In this document: positions 11,379 through 56,235 of the stretch, in pieces | Layout of the letters: every line of letters starts with the position of its first letter | How positions within the stretch are numbered: the stretch's first letter is position 1 | From: Bryum argenteum | Lineage: Eukaryota; Streptophyta; Bryopsida; Bryales; Bryaceae | Direction of reading: 5' to 3' | DNA: 64,000 bases | Assembly: GCA_037043015.1 (NCBI GenBank) | Contig: CM073323.1 | Location: 15,021,258-15,085,257, forward strand | Translations under genes and position numbers: made by a program | Notes under the pieces: generated by a model | Database searches by the model: none | The model's input: only the letters and a program-made list of their open reading frames with translations | Told to the model about the DNA's origin: nothing

Positions 11379-11564
11379 TTAACACTTATCGAGGTGTGAC
11401 TGACCTTGGATGAACAGGCGGAAATTGTGGCCCTCCGTTTCTTTGTACTTTCCCCTACAAAGAGCCAACTCATCAAGATAGCCACGTGCTATTTCTTTTC
11501 CTTTTACATGACAAAAGAACATGCAGCCTCATCTCAGAAGTATGGGATTCAGGATACAGTACTG

Positions 11565-11665
11565 TGTGGAAGTGATTCCAGGATGTGGATTTGGGGACGT
11601 TATTTCAGGACGTGAACTGAATTTGGGGATGTGAATGAAATTTGGGGATGTGATTCCAGGCCAAG
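11565..11665. repeat. short degenerate GGGGATGTGA repeats
   Basis: Phrases of the type 'ATTTGGGGATGTGA' and 'ATTCCAGGATGTG' recur four or five times immediately upstream of the RPS23 promoter region. They have no obvious ends or coding content. Confidence 0.5.
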
Positions 11666-11687
11666 GGTTTTGCCCTAAAGTGTGCCA

Positions 11688-11696
11688 AAACCCTAA
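11688..11696 (+). promoter_or_regulatory. telo-box upstream of RPS23
   Basis: AAACCCTAA lies 123 bp before the start codon. This motif is characteristic of plant promoters of ribosomal-protein and other translation genes, so here it fits its neighbour and supports a plant origin. Confidence 0.65.
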
Positions 11697-11818
11697 ATCT
11701 AGCTCTTTTGGCTGTCGGAGCTCCCGCACGTCCTCCTTCTCGACGAGGCCCTTTGCTCGAACTCATCCCTTCCCTCCCACCGCACCGAAAGCAAGAAGGA
11801 GCTTATCAGTCTTTCACC

Positions 11819-12821
<1,003 letters not shown>

Positions 12822-13217
12822 AGCGTGTGCACGGAACGTGTTAGTCTTTATGTAGCGAGTGAACGATACGAGCTGCTATTGGATTGAGCAAGCATGTCAT
12901 TCTATTTGGGTAGCTTCTTACTTAACGAGTAATCACAGCGTGGAATTCCACCTACCATATTGGCTCGGATCCGACTCCCACCTTCTCTTCCATGTGCACG
13001 GTGCTCGTTAAGTGTCGCTGTCTTTGATGTTGATTGGCTTGAGGTTTGAGTCTGGACTGTCCTTCGTCTTGTGAACCCTACTTTCTCAGTACCTCGGTTA
13101 CTAAAGCGGAGAACTAGTTGCAACTTTTCAAAGAACAGGCCGGCCGTTTGTTAGGGTTGGGCATCTTGTACGATTTGGGAGCTATCTTCTGTTGGTCAGA
13201 TTGGCACTTACGGTTAA

Positions 13218-13800
13218 CCCTTAATTGTCACCGGTGACCAAACTGGTCACCAAGCTCATTGTTTTTGCTTTTGGGGTCCGACACAGTGGTAGGGTGCAAA
13301 TCTTGTCCAAAGGCACCCCTATTCTTTTGTTTTTCCGAATCCAATGCTCCTTCCCGATCGCCTTCTTGAGGTTTGTGTGATTCGCGCGCAATTGTAGGGG
13401 CCACGTGATCCCATGGTCAATGCTCTTTGACTTGGCCTTTCTTTTTATTTTTTTGACGATTTTTTTTCAAAATAATAAAAAATCTTGATCTTTATCCCTA
13501 TACCATGCTCTATGATGCCAATTTTCAGAAAAAATGACCCAAGGGGGAAAAACCAAAAAAGCAATATGATATTTCTCACTCATGATGAGCAACCAAAACA
13601 TTTTTTTCTCAACGGTGCCATTTTTTGAGATTATACCCGATGTGATCAATCTTTTTTGCATTGGTCACATCACCAAGTTACCTTGATAACCACCGTTTCC
13701 GATTCTCAAAATTGTTTTACCTTAGTGCAGGAATAAGGCCAGAAGACAATGAGGTTGCATTTCTCTCCAATTTGTGGAAAACAAGGATGTCAATTAAGGG
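13218..13800. mobile_element. piggyBac-like TTAA element (583 bp)
   Basis: TTAA at 13214-13217 and 13801-13804. The left end CCCTTAATTGTCACC and the inverted right end CCCTTAATTGACATC agree over the first ten bases and some beyond. A perfect hairpin, GGTGACCA-AAC-TGGTCACC (13233-13251), follows the left end. There is no coding capacity. It lies between the 3' ends of RPS23 and the CCCH gene. Confidence 0.75.
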
Positions 13801-14177
13801 TTAAAGCAATCTGATGACGGTCCTAAGTTACAGTACTGCTGTTATTTGTTGAGACTACCAGGCCCCTGCTGTGCTTCATGAAGTCAACAAGAGTGAATGT
13901 AACCAATGAATGTCCTTTCAGGTTTACCAATAACTCGAACCAGTTCTAGAAAAAGCAGGACTCCTGAAAACAATTTCACTCCCTACGAGCTAAGAAACAA
14001 ATGATTCTGTTTGTAATGACCACTGCCCTGAGGGTGATATCCTGTCCAGGGAACGTTATTTCTAATAGATTATTTGCAGGGAGAAAAAAGCCCCGTTTGT
14101 GGCGACTGTCGTCATACCTGAAGCTAAAGAAAGAATCATGATTCCAAAATCTAATGTTGTTCGGGTTGCCCGCTAGT

Positions 14178-17100
14178 TTACATCGCTGCTGCCGTGACGG
14201 GAGGTACGTCGGTACCTGGAGGTAGTGGGGTGGTTTCTTGGCTTTCAGCAACACTTGTTGGATGATTATTATTTTCATAAGAAGTCGAAATTCCTTCTCG
14301 AACAGCTTCAACAGCCCTCGCAATAATCTCTTGTGGAGGGGGATGATCATACTTACATGTCAGTCCGAACTTGCATGCACCTGTCTTCATGTAATAAGTG
14401 CAAGGTGCCTCACCCTAACAACATCAACAAACAACACAGCACACATAGAAGTAAATATGATTGACATAGTAAAAGCACGACTCGAGTTTCCGATTGAATA
14501 ACTGAATTCCGTTTCCTCCAAGGCAATTGCGAAACACAATAGAAAGGTTGCGATACACAAGTGAAAGCCTGAGAACAGAGTAATTATATCAATAACTCGA
14601 ATTTGAAATGCCAGACCTGCTTACCTCTCTTCTAGGAAGGCCTGCAAGACTCAACTTCACTGCTCCTGTTTGATTTTTGGTCGGTTTAGGAATGCCCGTT
14701 GGAATGCGGTCAGGTGGGTGATGGAATTTGCAAGTAGCTCCAAAACTGCATTCTCCAGTTTTGATATAAAACTGCATAACAACACAATCAGATCAGTTTG
14801 TCAAAAGAACAAATTCAATCAAGGGAGTAGATGTCCTTTTTTTATAAGCTCACGGAGAAATGTTAAAATCCTTCAACAACATGGAAAGTGGAGATTCAAA
14901 GTGGACACGATTATTAAACATTGCGCCCCTTCCAGCTTATTCGTATGCAGTCCATTTTCACGGTGTAAGCTACGTCAATCATTTTATCTCTGAAGAAAAA
15001 TGATGATGTTCTTGAATGTGTTGTCAAAAAGTTCATTGCGTGTAATAACGCCCGTCTACATACTAAATTGGATCAGCTTGAGAAGGAATGATTTCATCAT
15101 CTCTGATTTAGCATGTAGTTGTGCAATTTTGAATAATTCGAGACTCACAAATCATTCTCTGAGTTAGGTAGATAAAAAGGTTGGTGAGGAACATACAGTA
15201 CAGTCTGGTTCCCCAGGTCGTTGTGGATGAGGCAAGCCTGACAGAGGCGCAACATAAACTGCTCCTTGATGATAGGCTTGCGCTGCTGCATAGGCATACT
15301 CTTGAGAATTTTGAGCAGCGGTGTAAGAAGCGTATTCGGCAGTAGTAGGTTGTCCAGATGCATCGATGGCATAGGTAGTAGTGGCATATTGTTGTTCAGA
15401 CCTGGGCTGTTGTCCTGGCTGTTCAGTAGCGTAGACGTACTCAGTTCCATTCTGCGACGTTTGTTGCGTTGCATAAACGTACTCGGGTTGAGCTTGAGGT
15501 TGTTGACCGGCTGGATATCCATATTCAACAGTTGCAGGCGCAGCTTGACCGGGTGGAAAAGTTCCAGGTGGGTAGGTTTGGGCATTCGCTCCTTGGGACT
15601 GCGAGGGTGTACTGGGAGGATATGCTTGCGCGGTCATCGATTGGGATGGTGTACCTGGAGGATATGTTGTTGGCGTGGTGCCAGGAGGACATGTTTGTTG
15701 CGTCGTTCCTGGCGGATATGTTTGTATCGTTGTTCCTTGTTGTTGGAAGGTGGTTCCGATGGGGTAGGATTGCGCCTGAGGAAATACTTGGGCAGTTGTT
15801 CCCTGAGCGTATTGTTGCACGATAGTTCCTTGAGGATAGGCCTGAGTCGGCGTTCCTGGTGGATACACTTGCCCTTGAGAGTAAGCTTGCGTTGGAGTTC
15901 CAGGATGATATGTCTGCCCAGTAGCTCCTTGAATGTAACCTTGCGTGGTGGCTCCACTAGGATACACTTGCATCGTCGTTCCAGAAGGATACACATATTC
16001 CACCGTTTGCATCACTTGCTGACCTGAATATGAAGCTTTTGGTTGAGTGGCATATTGTGGAGCAGGTGTGGTGTAAGTTGCAGTTACAGGATACGCAGTC
16101 GCTGTACCTGGAAACGCCGACGCCGCTGCTGTATATGCAGGTGTGGAACTCTGATACGTTGTGGTTGTGGGATATGCATACTGTTGACCGTCCTGCCATT
16201 TTCAACAGTTTTCGATGATAAGAACTTGATACATGCCGAGAATATCTTCTGGTACAAGATTATTGTACAAGCTACGATTGTGGATACATCCCAAGCAGCT
16301 CGTGACATGAAGCTAAATGATGAGCGCAAATTAATATGTCAAGAAATTAGTTTGATGGTGATTAGAGTTAACCACCTGCTGCACCATTTGATACTGCACA
16401 TTAGGTTGTTGTTGAGATTGGACGTAAACTGCTTGTTGTGGCTGAAGAGTTGCTCCAGTTCTACCTCCAGCTGCATCAAAAGTATAGAAAATCTCCTTAA
16501 AAGCCTTCCTCTAAATTTGAATCGAACAGCAAAAAATCAATTTTTAAAGGGACTAACTTTAACCTCTAGAGCTGTAGAAATTTCAACTATTGCAAAATGA
16601 TTGTGAATCATAAGATACCATGCTAAAAATAGGTTATAAATGTCTCTACTTACAAAAGTCATAAACTTTCAGTACAGAACTCCCTGTCACGTATTGTGCA
16701 CATGTCATTGATGCACTAAACTAAATTGGTATATTTTTATATTTATATATAGTGCATTTAAATGGTAATTTGATACAGAAAAAGATAAGACAATTTTTTT
16801 CGTCAAATCGTAGTAACATCACCGAAAGATACATACACAACGATTCAAACATATTTTGGATGGAATTCAACTCTAATCTAAAATTGGTAGATTACTGAAG
16901 ATAAGTGTTGAGATACATAGAGGAAACTAAAATTAAAGGGAAATTTTCAGTGGTGAAGCAAATAGTAGGTGGGTAACATAAGAATACGAGTAGTTCCATC
17001 AGGCAATGAGACAAGACTTGTTGCATATTACTTTCACAAGAAACAAGAAACAAACAAGAAACACGAGTTCAATAGGTTGTAATGTGTTGGTTTAACGATT

Positions 17101-20100
17101 TGGGAATAATAACAGATCCTCAAGTAGAATTCTATGTAGTTACTGGAAAAATGTATTCTACAAAAAATTGAGATGCTTCATTAGAGCTTTTAGGAGAGCA
17201 ATTTTTACCGGCCAATAAAATTTCTGGATGATTATAACGGCATGCTGTACCATACTTACAACTGGTTCACCCCACATTTCATTTACGTTAGACTTCGTCT
17301 TATTCATACATACATGGACAAAAATGTTCAATAACAAAACAAAAGCACACACGCTAGAAAAAGACGCACCTTCCAGTTTTGCCATAAAATACACAATTGC
17401 CCTCACCCTGCACGTCACAAGCACAAGCACACACAGATTGTTGAGGTCCAAGAGCCTGAGCTCATCTTGGCCATTGAAGGTGCCAAAAGCTACAAAAAGA
17501 GAACAGGAAAGGGGCAATCATTAAGGCTAGGGCGCAAACAGGGAATTCCAGACCTTTGAGGTTTTATTTTTGTTGCCATCTACATCAGAGAAGAGTAAGT
17601 TTTCACAACTGCTAAAATAAAGCATGCTCATAGATCAAGCAAACAATCACTAAATTTCAGATCGTGTTATCTCATTTGTTGGTTTTTATTACTGTTTCGT
17701 GTCTCCATGCAAAACTGCTGGGTGCTGTCAGAAATGATGTGATGTCATGCACTTACAGGTCTCAAAGGCAGTCCTCTTGAATTGAATGCGCTTGCTGGCT
17801 GAACAGGCATTGCAGCAGCTTCAGAAGCTTGTTCCTCGGCATTTTTAGCCTCAAGCTTCTCAATTGGATGATTGAATCTGCACTTTGTTCCATACTTACA
17901 TTCTCCTGTTTTCATAAAATACTGCACATGTACATAGAACAAATATTACTAAAAGAGCTTTCTGATCACAGCTAACTCATAACTTACACAAGTGTTTGTG
18001 GAAGTGCTATGAATGCACGAACGAAAGTGTTAACTAGAGACTGCAGTTCTGCAAATAGCTACGCTAATTTTTTCACAGTACAAAGCAGATTGATAAATCC
18101 AAATAAGGCATAATGTATATTCCTACACAATTTCAATTAAACTTCAGAGAGAAGAACCAATCTCAAACAAATATCTCAGGTGCTGACTGCAACAACCAAG
18201 TAGCGGCTATAGCTTAGTGCATGTGGAACTTGGTGCATGCACTATATAGATATCTTCAACCATCAGATTGACGCAGATCCTCATTTACCAATTGCGGTTG
18301 GAACCACAATCATTCAAAAGAATTGCGAAGAGATTTCGGACCAGTAAAATGCTTTTCTCGTTGCAACGAATTGAAGAGCTAACCTCACCAGCATCAATCT
18401 ATAGCTAACTGAAAATTACAACTGCCTGTTGAATCCAGTGCGAGCACGAAGGTCTGTCAACTTCCAGCTTCTGTAGCTAAACACCACTAAAATTGGTTCT
18501 TGCGATGAGGACTTTTTTCTCATAGCTACACTGTTGATGAATTCCCAATTCCATATAGTTTCAAGTGAAAAATACTTCATATCCAATGTTTGAGTATTCA
18601 GAATATTCGAAACTTACAGCACAGTCTGGCTCTGTTGGTCTTTGAGGTAATGTAGCTGGATCTATAGCTGTTCCGACAACTGTTGCCTATTTGAATCCGA
18701 GATGAAATGAGAATTTGTTAGAATCCATTTTGAGTCTAAGTCTTGATGATCTAACTATTTGCAGTAAAAGCATTCTTGCTGTCTATAAACTGATATTTTG
18801 AAGATGCCATGGTCAAATTGATATGGGAAAAGAAGAAGCCACTCTGTTGCTAGGATTCATAACAAACTTGCGAACTGTGCAATATAGCCAGGCAGTTCAC
18901 TGACAGCCTCTCTAAGAGGTTCATCAACAAATCCGCATGGACTCACCTCCTTCCAATTCGGAATTCCACCAAGAGGAACCCATGCCGGATGATCAAACCG
19001 ACATGAACTGCCAAAACTGCATAAGCGCGTTGTCATGTAATAAGCACACATTTTCTCTCCAGGCCTTTGTGGATATTCTGTTGACTCCCCAACACTGTCC
19101 ACCCAAAGCTTCTCATCAGGTCCATAATACCACCACTAAGACTCCTTATACACAAACAAGGTATCTCAATTGTATACATGCTTGATGAAAATACTATATT
19201 GCAAAGGAATGAGGTATAGGTCAAATCATACAAATTGTAGTAGGTGGTGCGGAACATCAAGAGTAGCAAGACATAGCGTAGTTATACACGTAGGTGCCAT
19301 CCAACATAGTAACATTTGCATTCACAACAATGTCAAACGGTTAGATTGAGGTATAATAATGCGTTTCTAAACATAGAGAACTTTACTACTCAATGAAGCA
19401 TACCAACAAGCATCACATGTTTACAATTCATTCAAAAAAATTACTCAAATCCAAAAGAAATGTGAACAAGATCATAAGGAATTCACCAACTTACTTACTT
19501 TTGTTTCAAATAACAACATAAACACTATATAAAATATTCTACACAAATATCATAGTTCTCAAATGGTAACACATTTCACTCTAGAATCTAATGAGGGGTA
19601 AATCAAATGAATCCAAGGACATACACAATCTTTCTTTCAAGGAAAAAAAAGAAGTGAGCTCCTAGAGTATAGATCTAAGTTTTTCTCCTAAATTTTTATG
19701 TTGGATTCACCTTAAGCATCAAGATATGAATCACTCCCAAGAGACATAGGAAGTTAGATTCAAAATACTTAGAAAAAATACAAAATCTTGAGATTTTTAA
19801 ATTTTTTGAAATACAATGATAGTATTTTTGGAAAAATATATAGCCTTTGTAAACATATAATTTAACAAGTTTGTTCAAAGATTCAAGAGGGTATCTAATG
19901 CACTCTCCATTTCACTTTGTTCTTCACTGTGTAAAACTATAACATAGATGTATTGCTAAAAATACAGTAATCATATATAATTAATAAATTCTAATTACAC
20001 GATAAATAAAGACTTTGGTGAAATACTGATCATATTAGTTTTGTCAATGTGCACTAACAGTGCCTTGAGTAATGTATAATTACTCAAATCTAGGTGTGTA

Positions 20101-21520: not shown

Positions 21521-22104
21521 GGAAAACAATTTTGAAGCAGTAATAATTCGAAGAGGAAACGAGAAATCGAAAATAAAACGACAATTCGTGTTCGGAGTCG
21601 CCTTCTTGGTGGACATGCCTGGTCATGGTCATCGCGCCTCAGCCGCCGTTCTGCGGTCGCACATAATTCATCATGACATCGTGCCACGCACCGGTTCGAC
21701 CGCTGGTCGGCGTCTCTTTGTCCACCCTTTGCAACCAACCCCCTCTGTTCCTGTGTCATGCACAAAAGGTGACTTCGCATCACGCTTTTAAAACTCTATA
21801 CCACTAATTTCGTTTTACACTGTTCAGAATACAAGCGCATTGTTTCGATACTTCGGCGAGTGTGAAGAGGATGAAATTGCACGGCAAAAGTCTGCGTGTG
21901 CATTTTGCTTTTCGTCCTGCAGCACTGTATTATCCACGACTGTTAGACAATCTGTGTTAGAAAGGACAGTGTAAGTGCTCTTAGAGCATGTGGTGACAAT
22001 GCGGCCTTTTTGCCGCGGAGATTAAAAGCGTGCGGCAGAAATGCGCATGTTTCTGTGACCCCCGTGTATAAGTCTCTCAGACTGGAACCAATTTTCAGGA
22101 TAAA
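21521..22104. promoter_or_regulatory. divergent promoter region, CCCH gene and DUF819 gene
   Basis: The start codons of two head-to-head genes lie 584 bp apart. The spacer therefore holds both 5' leaders and promoters. I see no clear TATA box or telo-box that I would call. Confidence 0.6.
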
Positions 22105-25100
22105 ATGGCAAGCATTGGAGGTTGCAAGGCGCCGGTGGCAAATTCCTGTCACTCGCTGCGCACGCTGAGCGCAATGAGGACACATTTACAAAGCGCGCAA
22201 GGTTTGAGCAGTGCTTTTGTTCGTCCTTTGAGGCGCTTATCCAGTTCGGGCGTTGATACCAGAGGAAAAAGCTCTACGGCGTTGCGAGGGAGGATAACTA
22301 TGTCCCTGGTAGCACCGGAGTCCGGGCGTATGCTGTTTTGTACATTGGCGGCCTGTGCAGCTTCGGCGCAGGTAAATTTCCAGGGCGCTCTTCGTTTGAG
22401 GATTATCTTTTGGTCGGAGCTGCACGTTCTATTGATAACTCTCAAAGGCGTCATTGCAATCTACTAATTTGCGTAGCAGTAAGTGCGAGTACGTTCTGAA
22501 AATCGTTGTGCGGCAGGCTTCGTTCTTTTCTCAAGCTCAGTCAGTTGTGTTCGCAGGTATTGGAGTCGAGAACGAAGTTTGGATCTCAAATCTCTGCGCC
22601 TCTGTTAGCCATGGGCAGTGGTGTGCTCCTCTCTTCTTGCGGCATTATTCCTCCCTCAGCTCCTGCTTACGACTTGGTACTACCTAACTTTCTGGAGCAA
22701 ATCCAATTTGTGTGCCTCGGGCTTCGTAAGAGTCGATCTTCTCAAAAGGAATTGATGTTTGGTCCTCCACCTCGAAATTGGCTTGTTTGTGTACTGATTG
22801 CTGTTGTCCTTCTTCAGTGCTCACATAAGTAGTGAATCTTGCAATGCCGACTTTGATGCGACCTTTAAGAGTCTCACAATTTGATAGCAATTTCTCCACG
22901 CGTCTAGGTTTATTAGAGAAGAAGAATTTGATGACTGACCGGGCAGTACACAGGCAGGTGCTAGCACTGGGGATGCCAATGGCAGTTGCAATGTGCTTAC
23001 TTGAGACCGACATTACGCGAGCATTTACAGATGCAGGTACGCTGTACAATGTTGCCACATTTCTCTAGAAATGTGCTTAAGGACGTGCTCACAGATCACT
23101 TGTTTCGAGTAGTCATGCTCTTAATGCTCAAAATCTCCTGTGCGAGTTGTTATATTCTCACAGGAAGCTCAGAAATGTGGTGAGTTATGGTTATCGTTAC
23201 TGAAGAATGGGCTGCTTGAATGTATATCAGGCGCAACTTTGAAAGCGTTCTGGTTCGGTGCTCTTGGAACAGTTCTCGGCACACTGGTTGCTTTTAAGGC
23301 TTTGGGAGGCTTGCTAGGCCCAGAGGGCTATAAGGTAGACGTTTTATTCTGAATATCTGCTAGAATCAATTTCGGCGATATGGTATGTGCTTGCAGGATA
23401 TACTATTTCCTAAGGTTGAATACGCTAAGCTTGCGAAGGCAAAGGTCTGCGTGATAGAATCACCCGTGTCGGCGTACTTTTTTCTAAACCAATTGAGCAA
23501 ATTTTTGATTGTCACCAGATTGCTTCATCTCTATGTGCTTCTTACATAGGTGGAAGTGTGAACTACGCCGCCACTTCTCAGGTACCATGAAGATAGATGG
23601 GTATTTTAAATTACAATGTCAGCTTTATTATACACAACTTTGCGCTGATGGCGCCCTTGTTGCAAAAACTGGTGGCTAACTGAGATTGTTTGCTGCGTGT
23701 TCTTAAATGCAGGTGTTTGGAATATCGCCTAGTCTATTGGCAGCAGGCATGGCAGCTGATAATCTTGCCATGGCTGTGTATTTTGGTGTCATATTTTCTA
23801 TACCGGCAGGAGGACAAGAGCTCATCACTGACATTTCCAATGGTAACTAAATTATTCCATATTCTTTGTTAATTAAGTTCCCATATCCATTTCACTAGCC
23901 TTGAAGGTTTTAGATTCTTATTTGCTGCTCAATGTCTTTAGGAAATCAATGTATTCTGCCATATCATGCTTTATTTTGCACAACAAAGCAGAACGTCAAC
24001 GAGAGTTAGTGATAGTTATCTCCATTTTATCTCATGCCTTGAGCTTCTGTTAGTCTAAGAAGTTGTATTTTCTAGCCGTTCAGTTCGTGGTGGAGTAACG
24101 CACTATCATCCGCATCTTTGGTGATTCCTAAATTGTCATGAAACAGAGGAAGTTCAAGCGGAACCAGCAGCAAGTCCATCAGTGGAATCGTTGGCTCTTA
24201 CTATGGCTGCTGCTGCAAGCTCATGTATGGTTGGAAATTGGATTGCTGCAGTGCTACCTCCTCAGTTTTCTGGTTAGCTCACATTTCTGACGACCTGTTA
24301 ACTAAAGTAGTCACTGTTTCTTTCAATGACCGTCTCATAGTTGCATGTACAGGAGGAACTTTACCATGATATGAACAGCTATCTAGGGCAGAGTAGTATT
24401 CTGTCATGTTGAGATCTAGGAGTCACCCTGCGTTGTAGTTACAATGCTCATTTATCCAATTGGGACTGCAGCCGCCTTGAAATAACATCCGTGCTGACGA
24501 GCTCATTGATGAAATCCCAGGATCAGGATTGGCTATGATGGCTGTTGTTGCCTCCATATTCTCCGCTCTGGGAGCATTGGCCTCCAACAAGCTGGGAGGG
24601 GAAAGCAATGACAGAAGCACGCCTGTGTTTGCAGGGGCGAATTCATTTGGCGGTGTGCTCATGCTTCTTTTCTTTTCAGTGGTAATTTTGATGACTCCCA
24701 TTCACTAGTTCGAACGTGTCTATCGGGTCCTGTCTAAGATACTGTTGGTAATAGGTTATGTCTGTTTTCTTATAAACTCATAGAAGAAAACTTCACATTG
24801 ACGTATTTGTAGAAACGAGACGCGCTATTCATATGAAACAGTTTAAAGCTCTCTCGGCAATCTTTTGTGTAGGTTGGCGCATCGACACAGGTGAATGAAG
24901 CTTTAGCAGGAGGCTGGCCTCTCTTTGCATTCATCCTCATTCTTCTGTCTGTAAGTGATCATCTCACGTCTTTCAGAGCTCAATAATTAGTATTGCAGAC
25001 ATTAATGGCTGGAATATGTGCCTTTAGAGACTGTAACAAAAACGCAGCGTAATTTGCAAGCAAATATTGATATGTGCCATCTATCAGGTCCATTTGGCAG

Positions 25101-42883: not shown

Positions 42884-44315
42884 CTAGGAAAGAGAATTCT
42901 CCCCTCTTTGAGCAAATGAGCTTCCCAAAATGAATTCGCCAAAGAATTCATGGGCTTGTGTAGCTTGAATCAATAAATTTTTCACCCTTGCTTCCCTTTC
43001 AAGCCTTGTTTCATGTGCCTCGGTATTTTCAACTTCTTCAAATCCGCCATTGCTGTCCTTGTATGTAGCATCTTCATTTTCTTCCATGGACACATCATTG
43101 TCATTTATACGGAGAAACCGACGCATCTCTCTTGCACCTTCAATCTGCTTTGCATTGAAAATGTCCACATTTTCGAATTGCCCCATCAACCGGGAACTCT
43201 CTCTCCTCATAATTTGCTCACTTTCTTTTGCCCACTCATTGTCAAACACGTCTTTGTGTATAATACACAAATTATGCAAACATATGCAAGCGGTAACTAT
43301 AGACGGTATATGCCTTAAAGGCATGTCAATTCTTTTCAAAAGAATCCTCCAACGTCCCTTCAAAATACCAAAGGCTCTTTCAACGGCCATTCTAGTAGAG
43401 GATTGTATAAAGTTCCAATGAGCCTTAGCTCGTGGTAATCCCTCTTTTTCACCCTTAAACGGTGAATAAAACCACGGCCGCATTGGATAAGCGGCATCAC
43501 CTACAAGTTTATAGGGTGCTAATTTCCCACTCATTATTTTTTTTCCAATATGTGAATTTTGAAATAAAGTCCAATCATGACAACGGCCGCCCAACCAAAA
43601 TCATAATCCCAAAAACGACACCTACTATCTACCACACCTTGGAGAAGGGTCAATAATACCCCTTTCTACAATAATAAGAAGTTGGGTCTAGAGGAGGGGC
43701 TATGATAGGAATATGGCTACCATCTACCGCCCCTATTACATAAGGAATGCCCCTTAAATCCTCAAACTCTGCAGCAATTCTCCTCAATGTACTTGCCGTT
43801 TGTTTCTCAATTACTAATGGCTTCAAATGTTTTTCAATTGCCATACAAAATTCTCTAACAATTATAGATGCTGTACTTTCATGAACTCCATAAATTTCAA
43901 AGACATCCCCAAAAGAATTCCCACTACAAAGCCTATTGAGAGCAAGAGCAACTCGGGCTTTAAGTGGAATGGCACATCTCATGTTTGTATCTACTCGGTA
44001 CAATGAAGGAGCTAAAATACCACATAAATAATCAAAAGTCTCCGGGAGTAACCTTGTATGTTGCCGAAATAAATGTGTGGTATAGCTCCCAAACAATTGA
44101 TTCTCCAAAAAAAAAGTTGTACGATCCCGCATCCAAATGCTCCGTGCTTCCCTTGAAAAGCCATCTCCCTCCACCATGATAGCATACATTATAGTCATGG
44201 CACTATAATGTTGAGCCAATGCCAATTGTTGCAAAATTGCAACAACGGAAAAAACATGCCTTATGGCCATAAAGAAAACAAGTGCAACTAACACCTTATG
44301 CCTCCTCTCATCCAT
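42884..44315 (-). pseudogene. PIF/Harbinger DDE transposase, broken
   Basis: A start at MDERRHKVLVALVFF is likely. The N-terminal helical part is followed by the catalytic fold: first aspartate in IGAVDGSHIPI, second in the GVVDSRCRFWDYDFGW region with the downstream HDW, and the final glutamate in MAVERAFGILKGRW. The motif KLVGDAAYPMRPW is also diagnostic (DDE_Tnp_4, PF13359). Two frame changes lie near 43,650 and 43,590, between the first and second catalytic aspartates, so this copy cannot make a full enzyme. The tail after FGILKGRW is acidic and ends near GENSLS. The enzyme would cut at the terminal repeats and duplicate TTA. Confidence 0.88.
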
Positions 44316-44554
44316 CTTTATCAAATGATAAAGAAGAAAGATCAAGATGGGTTGAAATAGTCGAAAACTCCTCTTATGGCCTCTAGAAACGGCCCCAAGG
44401 GCTTTACACATGGGAGAATCGGCCCCCACTTTATTAATTTCTTAATGTGTTCACCAAGCGGCCCATTGAGCCATTTGGGCTCAAATTTTGAGTGAAACGG
44501 CTTGGAGATTTGTTGGCCTCGACTCCCCATGTAAAGCGTCCCTTAGACTGTTCT

Positions 44555-46429: not shown

Positions 46430-46875
46430 GGATAAGTGGCTCCAGGATTTTTACTAGCTAGAGTTCAATTCAGAACTCTATAAAACATTTTGTAAAGTTT
46501 GTAAGGCAGGAAGAGGTTGTGATGTCTTTGCAACAGATGGATCTGTCGAGATCAAATATTGTGCCTTTCATGACCTTTCATCAAAGTGTGAAGCATCGTA
46601 AATTGGCATGGGCATGCCAATCAGGTGGCGAAAGAATCGAAAAGGATATTGCTGAACAAGCAAAAACAACAAACAATGCTCTTCATTTCCTTTGCATGGC
46701 AACATACTATATAGGCATGAATTCCATTCATTTTAGTAAGTTTACTTCCTTATGTGATCTTCTAGTAGATATGAAGAATGAAATCACTCGTATGATGTAT
46801 TATGATGACAAAGCATGTGCTGACATGCTAATTTGTATTTCAAGCGTTATTCACTTATTCATAGTAAAATGTTAG
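46430..46875 (+). pseudogene. degraded hAT-like transposase fragment
   Basis: A first block reads KDKWLQDF, then FCKVCKAGRGCDVFATDGS, like the TTF-type zinc finger that opens hAT transposases of the ZNF862/DUF4371 kind. A second block in another frame, at 46,519-46,875, includes FHQSVKHRKLAWACQS and later LCDLLVDMKNEI. Stops and a frame change separate the pieces. No ends were identified. The assignment rests on pattern memory only. Confidence 0.35.
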
Positions 46876-46947
46876 AACACGTAATTCGTTATAATGAGAA
46901 TATTCAAACTCTCAGAAATCAATCGACCTAAATTCCAACATATGTAT

Positions 46948-47020
46948 CGAGCTAAACGCGCGTGTTTTAGAGCAAAACGCGCGTGATGTAGAGCTAAACG
47001 CGCGTGTTGTAAAGCTAAAC
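46948..47020. repeat. 21-bp tandem repeat, about 3.5 copies
   Basis: Each unit contains GAGCTAAACGCGCGTG (one copy has GAGCAAAA). The GAGCTAAA word is the half-site of the palindromes at 47,295, 49,001, 49,285 and 50,741. Confidence 0.9.
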
Positions 47021-47294: not shown

Positions 47295-47317
47295 ATTTAG
47301 CTCGACTAGAGCTAAAT
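47295..47317. repeat. palindrome copy A (ATTTAGCTC-5-GAGCTAAAT)
   Basis: Nine-base arms separated by GACTA, about 30 bp beyond the stop codon of the DUF7869-type gene. Confidence 0.85.
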
Positions 47318-47348
47318 TGACATGCCCAAATAAAGTAGGGATGTCAGG

Positions 47349-48910
47349 CTACTCCTCTCCACCGTCGAACCGCTCAATACTTTGTTTGATGATGTCGATT
47401 TGACGCTCCGATAATGAAATAATGGGACGCCGAGAGCCAAGTTTTGCACTTGATTTCCATGACGTAAAAATAGCATCAGCATGAAGCCATTCCGGGATGT
47501 GAGTGTCTTCAACTTTCCATTTGAATGTCTTCTTCGTATCCCAATCAGCATAGGTTTCCTGAACAACACTATTTTTTGATGCAGGTTGAAAATATTGCAT
47601 TTGAATACAGCATGGATAGTTGTGATCAACATCGAAATCAGTTAGAGACCTAGCAATCCAGAAAGGACGAGCATCCCCATCAGCTGGACGTAGAGCTACA
47701 AAATATCCAGCAAAAACATCTCGACCAACCCGAAACGACTCCCTTGGTCTATCACACAACCGTCCGATAAAGTGCGGATCACGCCCATATTCATCTCGCA
47801 ATTTGCCAGTATTTAAGAACTCTCGTGTCGCAGGTACTCGAGTTAAAGGCCAACACCCGTTCTTCAAAAATGAAGACACTTCTGTAGACTCAACCAACGC
47901 AAGCTTCACAGCTCGCCAATAGCGAATAACAAATTCATGACGCCGACCAAATTCTCCAGATATGTCCTCCGCACTTGAAGTCTCCCACATCTTAATAAAC
48001 ACTCCAATGCCTTTTACAATGTCATCACAGTTCTTCATGGGAATGGGCGCCAAAGGTTTCATCTCACCTGTAGGTAACAATGGTTTCCCGTACTTCGGTC
48101 CTCTTTCCACAATTTTATGACTCCATTAGTAGAAGCTAACCACTCATTGTCTGTGCATAACATCTTATACTGCATCATGGGCCATCCATTGTCATGCTTG
48201 TAAAACTTGAATTGCTGACCCTCCGAATGCCCAACTAGAATTTCATCTCTAGAACCAATGTAATCTTTGATATAACCCTTGAAGTCAGGTATTTCCTCTA
48301 TCAAATGAGGAATGACCGGCAAAGACTCCGCGTCCATAAATGACTCCATCAACTGAGGAAGTGTGAGAAACTCATTCTCTTTGAGATTCATGCTGCAACG
48401 TCCGAAGAGGGCGTCAATATCTTCGTAGGTATGTCCAACTAACAAGAAACTGACATATACTTCACGGAACACACCCATGTGTACCAGAAGAGACCAAAAG
48501 CAAAACATAAATCTATTCTTGTTGTCAGAAGCTGCGTTGTCCAGTTGCACTTGCAAGACAGGAGGTAGAGGCTCCGCCACCCCAGAAACTTCACTTTGAG
48601 GTAGAAGAGAGTTTAAACACCCTTCTTTTCCAAACAATACAGCTTCAAATAAAGGCAGCGACCCCGAATTTGCAAATAATGACTTCGAATACGAGATCGG
48701 AACACCTTCTAAATCTCGTAAAAGCTTTAATATTGATTCAACAGTGTGATTGCAATCAGTTGGATAAATATCAAGCCCATAATGAGCATACCAGACATCG
48801 CTATGCCCGTGCGCGATCATGCCAGTCACAGCAATTGGAAGCTTCATCAATGCATCATTTGCATTTGTTTTATGTGAAAATACAGGGCACGCAGTCTTTG
48901 CATGATCCAG
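47349..48910 (-). CDS. DUF7869-type protein (transposase-like, mobile-element gene)
   Basis: Coding starts in an exon whose high end fits an acceptor at 48911 (TTTAG/CTGG); the first exon(s) lie further upstream and are not resolved. Conserved features: LQVQLDNAASDNKNRFMF, LVHMGVFREVYVSFLLVGHT and YEDIDALFGR, the signature I know as DUF7869, found in many plant and animal repeat-associated proteins. The D-N-x-x-x-D-N-K-N and GHT-x-x-D-x-D blocks resemble an RNase H-like DDE core (inference). The C-terminal part has DVFAGYFVALRPAD followed by PFWIARSLTDF, like a BAH or chromo-type segment, and ends RFDGGEE. One base appears to be lost in the run of A near 48,105, shifting frame between the two parts, so the copy may be dead or have an unseen splice. 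It is divergent from the ParB-like gene. Confidence 0.6.
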
Positions 48911-49000
48911 CTAAATGGACTTACTATTAGGTTCAGGGTCATGCATATGATGCCTGACTCGAGTTACATGGTCTCGATCCTCGTTTTGAGGTCAGCCTAT

Positions 49001-49019
49001 TTAGCTCGAGTCGAGCTAA
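49001..49019. repeat. palindrome copy B (TTAGCTCGA-G-TCGAGCTAA)
   Basis: Nine-base perfect arms around one base, in the spacer between the divergent DUF7869-type and ParB-like genes. Confidence 0.9.
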
Positions 49020-49129
49020 TTGATCTCGCCACCTAATCAAGACATGTCGGATTTGATCGTCAAGATAATGACGATGTTTTACTGCCCTTGTGAATCTTAC
49101 ATGTGATTCTCGTTTGTTGAATGATAGTG

Positions 49130-51099
49130 ATGCCGAGAACCAAACAAACTGTTAGAATTGTTCAGATGGCTGCGAATGCACCTGCCGAGCCTGAAATCGA
49201 AGTCGACATGGATGCGGGGCAGCAAGAGTCTGTTCCTGAGGTATTAGACCACTTCATCTCTATGTTCCCATCTAATGTGTCCATTTAGCTCGAATCGAGC
49301 TAATTCGCCCTCTGTTAATTTGTTATCCACTGGTCACTTATAACATGCAAGCCCTGGAGGGATTCCTTGCACCAATACAACTCGAAGCAGCAGACGATCC
49401 GCTTGCAGCTATTGCTGTGGACGCGCAATGGGGGAGGTTGTGGACCCCCAAGACGAATTCCATCAAGTCTTGGTCTATTCGTCCGATGAACAAGACCCAT
49501 TTCTTCTTCTATCAACAATCGGGGTCTCACGGGGCATTTTTACCTTTGTGTCTTGATGCCTTCATCGAACTTGTTACTTATGAAGACGAATTCCTCCTCA
49601 TCAAGTTCGAAGCAGTGGAGGTCGAAGGTTTCGTCTTCACTATTGTATTTCCCCCCAATGAAGTCCGTTTCTCTCACGACTTCATCCGCAATTATATGGT
49701 CGGCAAGGTGGATGCCACTCAGCTTCATCATATTGACACGAGATTGCAGTCCAATGTGTTTTCGCCGAAAGCCTTTGCAGATCGTACATTCGATACACTG
49801 CGCAGATCTGGAAGGCTCTGTCTGATTTCGAGACTGCAAAGAAGAAAGGCAAGGCTCCGATGAAACGGTCCGGGAGTCTACTGTTGCAGGCTCCATCCGA
49901 GAATGCTCCGTCGGGTCTAGGCACTCCAGAGGGGAGTTTAGGCGTGCAGGGAACGAAGCGGCCAAACCCGATCTCATCGAGCTCTGGCTCCAAGAGGAGC
50001 AAATCCTCCGGAAGCGCACTTACGTTCATGAACCTTACAATGAACGTGGCTGTCTCGGAGAAGAAGATCAAGTATGAGGAAGCGACGAAGTTTCTGAAGG
50101 ACTATTGGGACAACTGTGTAGAGTGTTATGTCTTCGGTCGTGACAATCCGCTTGACGTGTCGATCGACCTGCTCGACCCTGCCGAACCAAGGTTTATCGT
50201 GCGATCTCTGGAACCGGCCGGAATAGCGCATTACAAGAACATCTTGATGAATTCCCTCGATGTTACTTCCAGGCAAACCATCATCATTATGCCGAAAATT
50301 AAAGATGAGCCTAAGATGTGGGATTGGGAAGATCTGGTCCAATCTTGTCGGTTCCGTATTATCGACGGGCAACACCACGTTGAGGCTGCGAAACAGTTGA
50401 TTCATGACAAGAAGATCGACGACTCGAAGATCCTTGCCCTTCAGACATGGAAAGCCCATGTTGTGTGGCATTCCGACATTAGCAAGATTCTGGACGTGTC
50501 GGCCATGGCGAACAAGACGAACAATGCTGGGACGTTCATACCTTTCTGGGCAACGAACATCATGGGTGCAAGAATGGTTTGGGAAGACTATGGCCGCCCT
50601 CAAAAACTGAAGAAGCCACATTGACGTGAAACACTGGTTGAAGTAGATAACCGGAAGCGTTATGAGGTATGAGATTACTTGTTCTTTTCTTTTTATGATT
50701 GGCGTTGTTTGCATTCTCTGTCGACGTTTTTGGGGACGTCGTTTTAGCTCGACTCGAGCTAAAACAACATAGGTTGTTTCTTAATCGTTTGGCTTTGGTG
50801 CAGACATTCGCGGCTGCTATGGTGAAGAGGTTCATCAGCATCAACAATAAGACAATTGACGTGAGTTATGTCTTAATCAGATTACTACACACTACTCGAC
50901 TTTTCCAGTACCCGAGTTGTCAATTGAGCGACTTCAAAAGATTGCTACATCTCATGTTGAGCCGGAATTCAAGGCAAAGTGGCTGTCTTGGTGGAATAGC
51001 ACGGATAATGAAAGACAGCTTGTGTGTTTTCCCTTGGATCGTCCAATGAAAGAGAAAACCTTTGACGCCTGGATTCAGAAGGCTTCTTTTTGGGCACAA
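49130..51099 (+). CDS. ParB-like (ParB/Srx fold) protein in a mobile-element context
   Basis: Proposed exons: 49130-49240 (MPRTKQTVRIVQMAANAP...), about 49300-49707, 49806-50666, 50804-50860 and a last one ending at 51099 with a GT donor. The join 49707/49806 keeps frame; the joins around 49,300 and 50,880 are uncertain. The middle exon contains FRIIDGQHHVEAAKQLI, the D-G-Q-H-x-x-x-A core of ParB/DndB/sulfiredoxin-type domains (compare ParBc, PF02195), preceded by VSIDLLDP and RSLEPAGIAHYKN, which match the usual upstream strands and helix. Before that lies a basic Ser-rich linker (GTKRPNPISSSSGSKRSKSS). An in-frame TGA at 50622-50624 is followed in the same frame by RETLVEVDNRKRYE, so either the copy has a nonsense change or splicing removes it. 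The 3' part is cut by the CACTA element. ParB-fold proteins are NTP-dependent DNA clamps or nucleases in bacteria; the function here is unknown. Confidence 0.6.
49285..49303. repeat. palindrome copy C (TTAGCTCGA-A-TCGAGCTAA)
   Basis: Nine-base perfect arms around one base, inside or at the end of the first intron of the ParB-like gene. The AG in its right half could serve as the 3' splice site. Confidence 0.9.
50741..50765. repeat. palindrome copy D (12-base arms GTTTTAGCTCGA)
   Basis: Perfect 12-base arms around a single C, 25 bp in all. It lies in the intron after the ParB motif exon, and is the longest and most perfect of the four copies. Confidence 0.95.
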
Positions 51100-51233: not shown

Positions 51234-52000
51234 GTCACAGATGACGTAAATCCAGACTATACGAAATTAGTGTGGAAATGTTAACCAAAGTGACATAGTT
51301 TACGTCATACGGTTTGACGTAAAAATGTCGCGAATGACGTTGCTTTGACGCGAGTGTCAAAAGTGACACAACCGAATTTTGAAAGAAGGATTTTGCGTCA
51401 AAGATGACAGAGGAGGAAGATCTTGACGTAGAGTGACACATGCTAAGGTAACTTTTTGAAGGGGTTTTTTACCTCACTATAGTTTTAAGATCGCCACGTG
51501 TAGTAATATTCAAAGTCAGCGCGTCACTTTTGACATAGAGGGCGTTTTGCATGACGTGCTCATGTCAAAACGTGTTATTGAAGACGTATAAAAAATCCTA
51601 CGTGAAATTGCCTTGCTGACTTGGAATTAAATTGAGGAGGGTAGGGATGACGTCGAATATATGGGTGTACATCCTAGGGGGTGTCACTAGTGACGCCCGT
51701 GTCAAAAGTGACAGAAAATGTGTTAAAGTGTGTCAAAAGTGACATTTTGACGCGGGTGACGTGTCACATGTTCATGGAGGCTATGGTGACGTGGCGGCTA
51801 GGGTTTGACCTGGTCAACATTATAGGGGTGTCAAAAGTGACGCGCGCGTCACAAGTGACGTAACTTGCGTCTAATTGTGTCATCTAGGACAACTGACACC
51901 GATGACGTGGAGTACATTCATAATTGCCTCGGTACCGACGTGGCGGATTAAGGTTGACCTGGTCAACATAGTGAGGGTGTCAATAGTGACGCGCGTTAGT
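51234..52000. repeat. subterminal TGACGT/GTGACA array of the CACTA element
   Basis: More than twenty copies of TGACGT, TGACGC or GTCAAAAGTGAC-type words in both orientations. Two longer phrases (GACGTGGCGG...TTGACCTGGTCAACAT...GGTGTCA) are directly repeated at about 51,788 and 51,940. In CACTA elements such arrays are binding sites for the element's DNA-binding protein. Confidence 0.8.
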
Positions 52001-52459
52001 ATTAACATGTTTAACGTTCAAAGAAGAGTTTGAAGCATGTTACTTGGAACAACCTCCGAGTAATTTAAGGTGTTGCTCCTCATTCGGATCATTCTTCACG
52101 CGTGCTTCCAAAGTTCGTTTGACACCTTAGTTACACACGTAAGCTCCAAAAGCAACTAGATGTACAACATGAAGATGAGCACAACATCAAGTGAAACGAT
52201 TCATCAAAGTTTCATACTACAACTCAAGGATATAGATCGTGGTAGAAGCAATGTAAAAGGGAAGTGAAGCATGAAAGTGTTTTACATTGTGGAGCAACAA
52301 TTTGTATGGGTGGTTGGGTCGCAAAGGACGTGTCGCACACCACCTACAGTCTACTTCACAACGCTCTATGGAAAAAAACAGAAAAATGGTACTCGTTATT
52401 TACATAACGTTCTTAAGCCGTCCACAACCTATCGACTGTTCATGACCTGAAACCTATCT

Positions 52460-53027
52460 TCACCATCTGAGAGGGGACCCATGTCCAGTTTCCACAACGG
52501 TGCGCATGTGTCCAAGAGGGGTTTTCACCGTCGACCGCATGGCGCGGGGAGGGTTGCGTCTCACCAAAGTTCGCTCTTGACGAATGATGTGAACCACTAG
52601 GCAGCACTCATCAACAGGCTCAAAAATAAGGAGATCTCCAGGGTGAAGATCGTGATCCGAGAGGAATTGGAACCAGCCATTGCAGACGCAGCTGTAAACT
52701 GCCGTCGTGGTCCCAACAGAAGTATTGGCCATGGTGACCGGCCACTCCGGACTCTTTGCCGACGTCACGAGAACACACACGCCCCCCTACGCCCGAGTCG
52801 CCCCCGTCCGCTTGATGAACGGCACGGGGATGTTCTGAAAGTAAGTACCCAAAATTGTGAGGTATCAGGCATTGACAAGATACCGTGGGGAGAGTAGAAG
52901 ATGCTGAGAAGGTCGAGAGACATACCAGTTGGAAGCTGCGTGTGGTAGCATCCACAATGAGACTGAAGTATGGAACGCCGACGTCCTCCATCTCTTGCAG
53001 GTATTGAAGCTGGAAGTCGTTCGCCAT
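52460..53027 (-). pseudogene. B3-like DNA-binding protein of the CACTA element
   Basis: Exon 1 (53027-52926) reads MANDFQLQYLQEMEDVGVPY and on to TTRSFQL, ending at GT. Exon 2 (from 52834) begins IPVPFIKRTGATR and continues, after an in-frame TAG at 52789-52787, with VCVLVTSAKSPEWPVTM, then NGWFQFLSDHDLHPGDLLIF and VVHIIR. This follows the plant B3 fold order: 'IP-x-x-F', a strand with W-P-V, then 'GW-x-x-F-x-x-x-H-x-L-x-x-GD-x-x-x-F' and a last strand (compare PF02362). The whole is about 190 codons and ends at 52460. The TAG suggests a dead copy, although an acceptor using that TAG would give a shorter protein lacking the first strand. By position it could be the element's counterpart of TnpA, binding the subterminal arrays (inference). 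Confidence 0.55.
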
Positions 53028-54540
53028 CCTCGCAATCGTGAAAACGTGAGAGACGAATAGAAACGGTGGAAGAGAGGAGTTCAAACGACTAAGCAAGCAT
53101 GTAAATGCAATGGGAAGAGGAGTCCAAACAACGGAGCAAGCGGCTAAGTGTAGTGGGAAGAGCCGAGAGTAGTCGGACATATAAGCATGCAGAAGGTACA
53201 CGTTCGAATAGGAGTTTTTATTGCATGACGGCAAAAGTCGGCGCTCATCATGATTGTTGATTCATGTGAGATTTGCAATGATTGACGGCAGATTGTAATG
53301 ATTCGTCCCACAAAAATGGAGATGATATTAGCACGATGTGACACACTGCCATTAGTGAAGAGAATCGAGATTCAAACAGCAAGCGTTTACCCCTTCCTTC
53401 TCACACCTGTAGTCTGTAGACTTCATTGATGCAACATGTTAGGCAAAGACACTTGCATGGAGAAAAGGGACCGGACATGGGAGAGCATAGTTGCAACCAA
53501 AACCTGTTATTGTTGACATTGAAGACGTCACTACTGACGTATCTGAAACAAGATTTGCGTCTTCCTTGACATAATTTGATGTCATCTGAGACGAGGCTCC
53601 CCAATTCAGAACTCACTGTCTGAAGAATCGCCGAGTAGGTGGTCCGATTCTTCATCATCATGGTTTGCTCCTACAAGCTCGTCTACGTGCTTGTCTATGA
53701 AAGTGCCGTGTGATGTAAACTCCTCCTCTTCTGAGGGATCTTGTCCATGTCTCTCTAGGTTATTGGAGTGAGATGAAATCAGGATGCTGATCTGTGTGTC
53801 GGCATCGTCGTGTTCCTCAGCAAATACACGTGCTCCACGACTGCCTCGAACTTCAACTTTGCACACCACTTTCCACGGCCCATCGTCAGGCACAAAAAAC
53901 ACTTGCTGCACGTGAATGGGGAATGCAAAGGACTGGGGACCCAAAGGTGCTTTGTAGTGATCTGAAAAATTCACAGACATAAATCCGTGTTCATCTCGCT
54001 TCATTGTTGGTGCAGTGCCTCCCATTCTTCCTTTAACCCATGAACATAGAAGAACTACGACGCACGTGTGCCTGTAGTCCAATTCAAGTATTTCTTCAAC
54101 ATGGCCCACGTACTCCTCCGTCTGTGCCCCTCCATCATCAGTGAAGGTAGCGTGCCCTCCACTGTCCATGGTGGTGCTTGAAGCTTCAACTGAGCGGCAA
54201 CGGAAGTGCATGCCATAAGCCTTCATTGAACGATAAGCTGTTGCGTTCAGCGAGGGTGGTCTAGACAAATCATATGTTGTTTGATCGATACACCTCCACA
54301 CCGAGCGGCATGGGTCGGTGTCGACCGGCTGTTTTTTCACCAATCCGCAAATGGTGGCAGTGCCCTTAGCTCTGAAGACATGTCACATGGCTGCCGTCTC
54401 CTTCGCCCACGTTGTCCCCGATGGCTCTGGCGGCGGAGTGACATCCTCAACTGCTGCTCCACCTCGTACGTCCTAGAATGTGCACAACGCATCAGTGGTT
54501 CGTGCCACAATGGACAAATTTCAAAGGAAGAAAACGCATG

Positions 54541-54800
54541 TTAACCCATCTTAGCTCATGTTTCCAGTGACGTGAAGTTATGTTTCTGATGACGTTAATC
54601 CATGATAACTCATGTTTCCGATGACATGAACTTCTATTTCTAATGACGTTAACCCATGATAACTCATGTTTCCGATGACATGAACTTCTGTTTCTAATGA
54701 CGTTAACCCATGATAACTCATGTTTTCGATGACGTTAACCTATGTTAACTCATGTTTCCAGTGGCGTGGGAAAAAAACTCATGTTTCAAATTACGTAAAG
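54541..54800. repeat. intron array of TGACGTTAACCCATG-type repeats
   Basis: A repeating pattern of 'AACTCATGTTTCCGATGACRTGAA' type (about 30-60 bp periods) fills the intron between the DUF4218 and DUF4216 exons. Two adjacent copies near 54,600-54,720 are almost identical. Confidence 0.85.
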
Positions 54801-55889
54801 TTGACACCTTCTCGTAGTCTTTGCGGTGCAAAAGCGTTTGTGATGACGAAGTTGTGAATCCATTCACGAAGAGTGGGGACATCACTCGTCTTATTCCCTT
54901 GCCCTCCACCATTTCATCGTGCATTGCCTGGTCTTCATTTGCATCCCACACTCTTCGCGATGTAGCACCGTAACGTTCCATGTACTCTGAACAGAATCCC
55001 AGTGTTTCTTCCATAGAGTATGCCTCGGCCATGCAACCCTCTGGCCTAGCATACGAACGCACATAATCCTTAAGGGTCTTCATATATCGCTCCATTGGAT
55101 ACATCCAGCGGGTTTGAACTGGACCGCATAGGAAGAGTTCCTCCATGAGATGCACCATAAGGTGCGTCATGATCACCATTGATCCTAGAGGGAAATCGCG
55201 CTCAATCATACAAAGCGTCGTTGCAGCATCTTCAACATACTCTTGTTTTTTAGACGCGTTGACCTTGCGACTGCACAAGCGTCTAAATACCCTGCTCACC
55301 TTCATGATACAAGTCCTGACATCTGTATTCATATCGATATTCCGCAACGCTGAGGGTAGTATCTGTAGAAGCACCTAGTCCACTTTAGAGTATTGTGCTA
55401 CAATATGGAGTTTTCACGTATCACATGACATGATAGCATACACACATTTGGGCGATCCTGAACTCAGTATTGCGCACCGTGAAGTGATTTTAGCCTACCT
55501 GTTGCATGAGGACGTGAAAGTCGTGGAATTTAAGAAATCGGAGTCTTTCTTCAGAAACTCTTTTGTAAATTGCTCCAGCATAATTCTGTGGCACCTTAGT
55601 AGATCCTATGACGCCGAGCATGTCCGTCTTAGCTTGCGGAAGGAGGACATAAGGTGCGTGTGGCATGAATAGCCGGCCGTCAGCACCCTGTGTTTGTCTC
55701 AACCATAGGTCAGACCTCACTCCCATATCTTTGAAGTCCAAGCGTCCTCGTGGATAATCAGTCTCCCCAAACAAAGTCTTTATTATAGTTTCACAAAGGT
55801 TTTTCTCGCAGTGCATGACGTCCAGTGTATGTCTGATGAGCAAGTCCTGCAGCACTTTCAGGAGCATGGTCAAATCTCGTTATTTGTAT

Positions 55890-56235
55890 ATTTTGGGTGT
55901 ACTTTCTAAAGTAAATATACGTTAATATGATTTACCGTTCAGTGGGCTTTCGCTGATGTTTACTGGGACGCCGGTTGAGACTGTTTTACGTTCCACTGCG
56001 TTTGAAATGACAGTGGTTGACGCAGTTTAATGTTAAGCTATGTCTACAATGACGGTAGTGAACATAAATTTACGTTACACTGCGTATAAAATGACAGTAG
56101 TTAACACTGGTACACGTTATGGTACGTTTAAAATGACAGTAGTGAACAGAAAATTACGTCACGGTGTGTTTTTAATGACAGAAGTTAACAGACTTTTACG
56201 TCATAGTGCGTTCAAAGTGACATCCTGGTAGTGAC
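55890..56235. repeat. intron array of AATGACAGTAGTTAACA-type repeats
   Basis: About six copies of a ~40-bp unit with the core 'TTTAAAATGACAGTAGTGAACA' pattern and a following TTACGTC word. It fills the intron just upstream of the exon with RHTLDVMH. Confidence 0.85.

Follow-up and report, generated by a model that had tools for sequence, protein, structure and literature searches.

A ParB-like gene and co-diversifying palindromic site arrays in a large, probably Sola-type transposon of the moss Bryum argenteum

VANDALs are MULEs, and one of them, VANDAL21 of Arabidopsis, carries the anti-silencing factor VANC21. VANC is a fast-evolving element protein, and its lineage-specific motif arrays lie in noncoding regions, introns, and the sequence preceding the transposase gene on its upstream side (PMC5735166, accessible text). 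In the 21.5-kb Ectocarpus element Sola1-1_Ec32, a ParB-like and methyltransferase gene lies opposite the transposase; the authors, who cite green and red algal cases, suggest that ParB-like/methyltransferase proteins may bind the element that encodes them and modify it (PMC12477816, accessible text). Here we describe an element of Bryum argenteum that carries a ParB-like gene, a divergent DUF7869 gene, and arrays of a 21-bp dyad (a two-fold symmetric site). It was found in a 64,000-nucleotide stretch (GenBank assembly GCA_037043015.1, contig CM073323.1, positions 15,021,258 to 15,085,257 of the forward strand), which we call the window.

The Bryum element resembles Sola1-1_Ec32 in its size of about 20 kb, in having its accessory gene and its probable transposase gene on opposite strands, and in the ParB-like domain of the accessory gene. 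A methyltransferase is present there, whereas none was detectable here, and site arrays and co-diversification are not described in the accessible text of that report. With VANDAL21, as far as the available account goes, the element shares a fast-evolving element protein and co-diversifying noncoding arrays. VANC has DUF1985/DUF287, while the gene here is ParB-like, has a DUF7869 partner, and lies in an element with 4-bp target-site duplications (TSDs); likewise, the VANC motif is described as 9 bp long and arrayed in one orientation, in contrast to the 21-bp dyad. Bacterial ParB-parS also combines palindromic sites with a nearby gene that has a ParB-like core motif, but the protein here falls below the ParB_N threshold, and its sites are arrayed at the promoters and in the introns of a transposon integrated in a chromosome. 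Algal transposons with ParB-methylase accessory genes have already been published; what is added here is a candidate site, its arrays, and co-diversification in a plant. In the open-licence PMC literature, we found no report of such site arrays or of their co-diversification with a ParB-like gene, and nothing on DUF7869 or on ParB-like genes in moss transposable elements.

Site arrays and borders of the element

Exact palindromes of the form TTAGCTCGA-N-TCGAGCTAA occurred three times in the window (49001-49019, 49285-49303, and 50744-50762), compared to a mean of 0.00 in 100 dinucleotide shuffles. Across the 258.8-Mb genome, the exact-arm palindrome was found at 6,381 places, versus 1 for the reversed control, and the first 100 places listed formed 9 clusters spanning 62 kb within the first 1.22 Mb of contig C1. 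The initial annotation had named an equal frequency of the palindrome elsewhere in the genome as evidence against its reading; in number the palindrome is indeed frequent elsewhere, but its occurrences cluster where copies of a single mobile element lie. The ParB-like protein had at least 133 scored matches (52 to 100% identity, from 964 candidates). For DUF7869, there were 1,699 candidates, of which 137 were scored, and at least 138 matches.

Site positions were counted at 30 loci with a ParB-like gene of the window type (type A), the window copy included. About 1.25 kb of sequence upstream of the gene held 226 palindromes, the downstream side held 30, and a 1.2-kb stretch covering most of the main exon held 0. 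At least three upstream palindromes were present at 26/30 loci and at least one at 28/30, and in most of these loci the intron sites kept fixed positions. The initial annotation of the window had raised the question of whether other copies of the gene are enriched for nearby palindromes, and the answer was strongly positive. With the window left out, the 253 sites of the other 29 loci gave 224 spacings, of which 101 were 50 to 55 bp and 45 were 100 to 110 bp. We do not claim helical phasing of a 52.5-bp period (5 turns), since the period is 30, 35, 80, or 104 bp in other arrays. Array units in five loci (L015, L013, L026, L030, and L070) extend into perfect inverted repeats with arms of up to 27 bp, and these long repeats could form hairpins or hairpin RNA.

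The full layout is seen in a less damaged copy, el1 (G000:C9:7626001-7656000), whose exons were deduced from reading frames and splice-like borders rather than from RNA. Its features, in el1 coordinates, are as follows.

8800 to about 11287, minus strand: DUF7869 gene, a single 755-aa frame
11613-12292: array upstream of the DUF7869 gene, with 10 exact palindromes
Up to about 17.6 kb: interior
17687-18677: array upstream of the ParB-like gene, with half-sites and palindromes
From about 18.8 kb, plus strand: ParB-like gene
18952: half-site in intron 1
20402: site in intron 2
21843-21985: array of 35-bp period in the intron after intron 2
22615: site in predicted exon 4 of the ParB-like gene

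The main arrays lie about 3.3 to 4 kb from the left end of el1 and about 7.6 to 8.6 kb from its right end. The exact palindrome was absent from 26/29 nonwindow DUF7869 loci, the other three having 3, 1, and 1; in el1, the corresponding array starts 1.27 kb upstream of the matched DUF7869 exon, near the edge of those 29 loci. Exon 3 of the el1 ParB-like gene contains an in-frame stop at a position where several other copies encode an amino acid. The C-terminal part of the protein (L071:1973-3031, equivalent to el1 21973-23031) has Arg/Gly/Ala/Pro repeats (TARAPPRGRG), an acidic tail, and an in-frame palindrome.

The two ends of el1 have AACACGTAATTC[A/G]TTATAATGGGAATAT in common, in inverted orientation. 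When the 20-base core of this terminal inverted repeat (TIR) was searched with its flank, 424 genome places were found (221 + 203), versus 0 for the control. Among 100 listed of the 424 places, 13 adjacent left/right pairs lay within 30 kb. Exact 4-bp TSDs bounded 12/13 pairs, with no longer match in any (shuffled mean, 1.17), and 11/13 pairs were 18 to 29 kb long. A listed ParB-like gene was inside 10 of these 11 long pairs (6 of type A and 4 of a second type, B, described below), and the eleventh was the one pair without a TSD. Two pairs resembled miniature inverted-repeat transposable elements (MITEs), measuring 151 and 161 bp in all and having exact 4-bp TSDs (C1:19068913-19069083 and C1:20776990-20777170).

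The Sola superfamily is characterized by 4-bp TSDs and TIRs, allows sizes over 15 kb, and is reported in the moss Physcomitrella (PMC10741241, accessible text). The combination of 4-bp TSDs, TIRs, a size above 15 kb, and presence in a moss fits Sola, and the element, with its two divergent genes, is probably a large Sola-type DNA transposon that moves by cut and paste. The DUF7869 protein is its probable transposase. An AlphaFold2 model of the window DUF7869 protein had a mean pLDDT (predicted local distance difference test score) of 33.6 and was unusable.

What the window retains of this mobile element is a broken remnant with an internal deletion, made up of the following parts.

46876-46902, plus strand: left TIR, AACACGTAATTCGTTATAATG..., matching both el1 ends
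46949-47020, plus strand: 21-bp direct repeats GAGCTAAACGCGCGTGTTGTA with half-sites, near the left end (found by TRF; el1 equivalent, 8394-8465)
47296-47316: single-mismatch dyad of 21 bp, TTTAGCTCGACTAGAGCTAAA, on the 3' side of the DUF7869 gene
47349-48910, minus strand: DUF7869 gene (probable transposase), in two frames, 47349-48125 and 48059-48910
48910-48999: internal deletion junction, where the counterpart of el1 10341-18653 is absent (blastn of the window against el1)
49000-49020: dyad site between the DUF7869 and ParB-like genes, by el1 comparison the last remnant of the upstream array
49121-49240, plus strand: putative ParB-like exon 1, from sequence, splice-like borders, and el1 comparison
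49284-49304: dyad site in ParB-like intron 1
49331-50666, plus strand: ParB-like exon 2, with approximate borders and a frame broken in this copy
50741-50765: dyad site in ParB-like intron 2, with perfect 12-base arms
50804-50855, plus strand: start of ParB-like exon 3, from exon 3 of other copies; the remainder is lost

Both genes are split between reading frames. The segment lost relative to el1 (10341-18653) comprises both main site arrays and the interior, and blastn similarity to el1 stops at 50850. TTAG at 46872-46875, directly before the left TIR, is the presumed target-site copy; that TIR core is the sole one in the window, where no right TIR core was found. On C1, 35/42 pairs of ParB-like and DUF7869 matches within 16 kb have starts about 8 to 14 kb apart. 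Since the genes are far apart in these other copies, their close divergent spacing in the window is a deletion product.

The initial annotation had described a divergent unit of a ParB-like and a DUF7869-type gene among four palindromes that avoid coding exons. The divergent arrangement holds, though its tightness arose by deletion; three of the palindromes are exact and the fourth (47296-47316) carries one mismatch, and the longest does have perfect 12-base arms, at 50741-50765. None falls within coding exons of the gene models proposed for the window. The DUF7869 assignment was borne out (open reading frame [ORF] 48062-48910 on the minus strand versus Pfam PF25273; E, 5.3e-45), as was the presence of the ParB/Srx-type core motif FRIIDGQHHVEAAKQ in ORF 49737-50621 on the plus strand; the ParB/DGQHR-like core of exon 2 covers about 50130-50560. 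The proposal of a plant mobile element whose ParB-like gene is tied to palindromes was supported as to the plant-type genome (22 matches to the LOB family), the mobility, and the tie; the likeness to ParB itself is weak.

Divergence of protein and site by lineage

ParB-like copies comprise type A and a group with 52 to 58% identity to the window protein, which splits into B1 (L073-like), copies about 66 to 79% identical to L073, and C (L072, 71% identical to L073). In the diverged subfamilies, the site frame TTTAG-N11-CTAAA was kept, the inner bases were changed, and the TIR pattern was still recognizable. When gaps of 5 to 19 between TTTAG and CTAAA were tested, only gap 11 was found in L073 (11 sites), L078 (3), L077 (3), L072 (1), and L027 (13).

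B-type elements carry dyads of the TTTAGGTAG or TTTAGGTCG type. The array upstream of the ParB-like gene in the B1 copy L073 consists of TTTAGGTAGCTGCC(A/T)CCTAAA-like sites, and changed dyads are also present in intron 2 of the same gene (L078), one of them perfectly palindromic (TTTAGCTGGA-G-TCCAGCTAAA). In another B-type copy, L077 on C10, repeats of the TTTAGGTCG type lie upstream of the DUF7869 gene, and a B2 copy, L079 (79% identical to L073), has 10 dyads, most of them TTTAGGTGGCTGCC-like. No A half-site was found in any of these four loci. The variant TTTAGGTGG was within 2 kb of copies with 71 to 76% identity at 9/9 places, among 100 listed of the 572 places of the B pattern. In the C copy L072, we found TTTAGCTCGGTTCGAGCTAAA, TTAGCTCGAACCGAGCTAA, and four TTTAGCTCGAACCAAGCTAAG units at a 104-bp period, and one A half-site was kept. 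Controls gave 0 places both for the B pattern and for the C-type pattern TTTAGCTNGGTTCGAGCTAAA, which had 15 genome places.

Association between motif type and gene type was measured on C1, where at least 84 A and at least 67 B-or-C genes were listed; the counts refer to genes listed there. The B motif set was the 100 listed of 572 (all on C1), and the A motif set was the T-centre variant, with all 76 C1 places of its 132. Within 2 kb, 47/100 B motifs were near B genes and 0/100 near A genes, while 17/76 A motifs were near A genes and 1/76 near B genes. Within 12 kb, the corresponding values were 68/100 and 1/100 for B motifs and 44/76 and 1/76 for A motifs. Random-shift means were 0.5 to 0.8 at 2 kb and 2.9 to 4.6 at 12 kb; a single random shift placed 29 B motifs within 12 kb of A genes. 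The sole A-type site near a gene of the B list (C1:21821432) adjoins a copy 76% identical to L073.

The ParB-like protein diverges faster than DUF7869. In the B group, identity to the window proteins averaged 80.9% (78 to 83%) for the DUF7869 partners and 54.8% for the ParB-like proteins (12/26 rows, those for which a partner was listed at most 16 kb away); in the A group, the means were 89.7% and 84.3%, respectively (30/84 rows with a partner). The TSD-bounded A (6) and B (4) elements were found with one TIR search pattern, which fixes 19/20 bases and is blind to differences elsewhere, and their arrays differ. Because A and B elements match one TIR pattern and have different arrays, the factor that binds the arrays is probably distinct from the TIR-binding transposase.

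Proposed role of the ParB-like protein and competing explanations

These data suggest, with a probability of about one-half, that a ParB-like factor encoded by the element binds the element's own arrays, recognizes the element by them, and keeps its promoters open against silencing. The DUF7869 protein, as the probable transposase, would act on the TIRs. The ParB-like protein would bind the 21-bp two-fold symmetric sites, each made of two 10-bp half-sites around one base, in arrays placed upstream of both element genes and in the ParB-like introns. Binding would let the protein recognize its own element and hold the promoters open against the host, as VANC does for VANDAL, with activation or anti-silencing as the outcome, and joint divergence of protein and sites would divide the element into mutually indifferent lineages. 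The dyads provide concrete candidate binding sites in four lineages of differing sequence, which makes the self-marking idea directly testable. If the proposal is true, plant transposons have acquired sequence-specific self-recognition on at least two occasions, with unrelated proteins as the starting point, and new DNA binders of chosen specificity could be had from the protein/dyad pairs. More tentatively, a ParB-type protein may have turned into a self-recognition system that loads on cognate dyads in the promoters and introns of the element, possibly spreads from there, and keeps the element active, with at least four mutually blind lineages within one plant genome; it would be a second, independent VANC-like anti-silencing system.

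The weakness of the resemblance to ParB is one of several points that count against this proposal. PHROG phrog_1033, 'ParB-like partition protein', matched 11/11 relatives weakly (best E, 0.0062), and ParB_N (PF02195) had 0 matches over the cut-off in the genome, with one sub-threshold place on C4, so that membership of ParB_N is not supported. Two features of the sites also count against it: the el1 site at 22615 falls in predicted exon 4, and L079, with 10/12 dyads at gap 11, has 2 at gap 18. Clustering of the sites widens the null distribution of the association test, one shift having put 36/100 B motifs within 2 kb of B genes, and 53/100 B and 59/76 A motifs were more than 2 kb from any listed gene; DUF7869-upstream arrays, degraded copies, and a gene list that is a lower bound may explain some of the latter. 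The C lineage has a half-site in common with A, yet its protein is nearer B. Finally, one element carries genes and sites together and only four lineages are available, and their matched divergence could be due in part to common descent.

Other searches with the ParB-like proteins gave no firmer identity. DndB matched 1/11 relatives (E, 0.045). Pfam N-glycanase_N matched 8/11 over 43 residues adjoining the core (best E, 0.0013, below the cut-off); although the best-scoring match in Pfam, it is regarded as chance. ParB_N gave no match in hmmscan of the ParB-like proteins, neither of the VANC domains DUF1985 and DUF287 was listed in the Pfam scans, and a PDB profile search returned 0 matches. 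In hhalign, F SopB ranked 2nd of 93 ORFs but with 1.2% probability and outside the core, and P1 ParB reached 0.09%; neither is significant. A single-sequence AlphaFold2 model (no alignment) had a mean pLDDT of 30.7 and was unusable. Outside this genome, no relatives were confirmed in viral contigs or genome contigs and none in phages, and the plasmid search gave one insignificant match (E, 1).

Among the alternatives, an accessory role in transposition survives best, though we consider it unlikely. TnpA brings the ends of En/Spm together, and a ParB-like protein on the arrays could similarly join the distant ends of a 20-kb element for the transposase. Such a role is consistent with the arrays that flank the interior on either side and with the half-site repeats near the left end; the main el1 arrays, however, are far from the ends, beside promoters and in introns, and the 151- and 161-bp MITE-like copies with exact TSDs leave little room for arrays.

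It is rather unlikely that a host factor binds the arrays, or that they are expanding satellite or hairpin repeats, with hitch-hiking as the link to the gene. The long inverted repeats that often accompany array units (arms up to 27 bp) and the physical linkage of genes and sites would fit. Against this, the intron positions are fixed in most of the 30 loci, the 11-base gap is kept (10/12 in L079), and the B lineage has changed sites in an intron as well as upstream of each of the two genes.

Self-marking by a ParB-methylase, in which the protein binds the sites and methylates the element (N6-methyladenine or N4-methylcytosine) as proposed for the algal Sola1 gene, appears improbable. The layout of Ectocarpus Sola1-1 is similar, judging from the accessible text of PMC12477816, and by eye the motif order in ParB-like exons 3 and 4 (L071 and L078) is like that of a decayed beta-class methylase, IDLRxVPG and then SPGGKFLSIMGGTKPMLAG. 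No DPPY-type catalytic motif was visible, however, A and B both having IDLRxVPG at the expected place, and the C-terminal exons matched no methyltransferase profile, with nothing from the PDB search or hhalign either. PF01555 had 32 short genome matches, but the two over the cut-off (on C4 and C7) are not near any listed ParB-like gene; two very weak matches are in the vicinity of A genes, at distances of about 1.5 kb (E, 3.0) and 6.5 kb (E, 7.9).

A parS-like segregation or clamp role along the lines of the initial annotation, in which the protein would partition or condense element DNA, has palindromic sites beside a weakly ParB-like gene in its favor but is very improbable for an integrated element that has TIRs and TSDs, carries its sites in promoter regions and introns, and lacks any ParB_N match over the cut-off.

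Neighboring sequences and chromosome C1

Upstream of the remnant, ORF 43650-44441 on the minus strand of the window (263 aa) resembles a PIF/Harbinger-type protein and is without a Pfam match. A second element occupies window positions 51240-56222, with its own repeats (GTGTCAAAAGTGACA) and tandem units of 42 and 54 bp. It contains a sub-threshold DUF4216 match (53606-54382, minus strand) and an ORF (55490-55879, minus strand) that we take, from a motif, to be CACTA-like Tnp2; the latter is without a Pfam match.

C1 (44.1 Mb) has 17% of the bases and 76/132 of the T-centre palindromes. The LOB family is plant specific, and 0/22 of its matches were on C1. C1 is transposon rich and perhaps gene poor, and it may be a sex or accessory chromosome.

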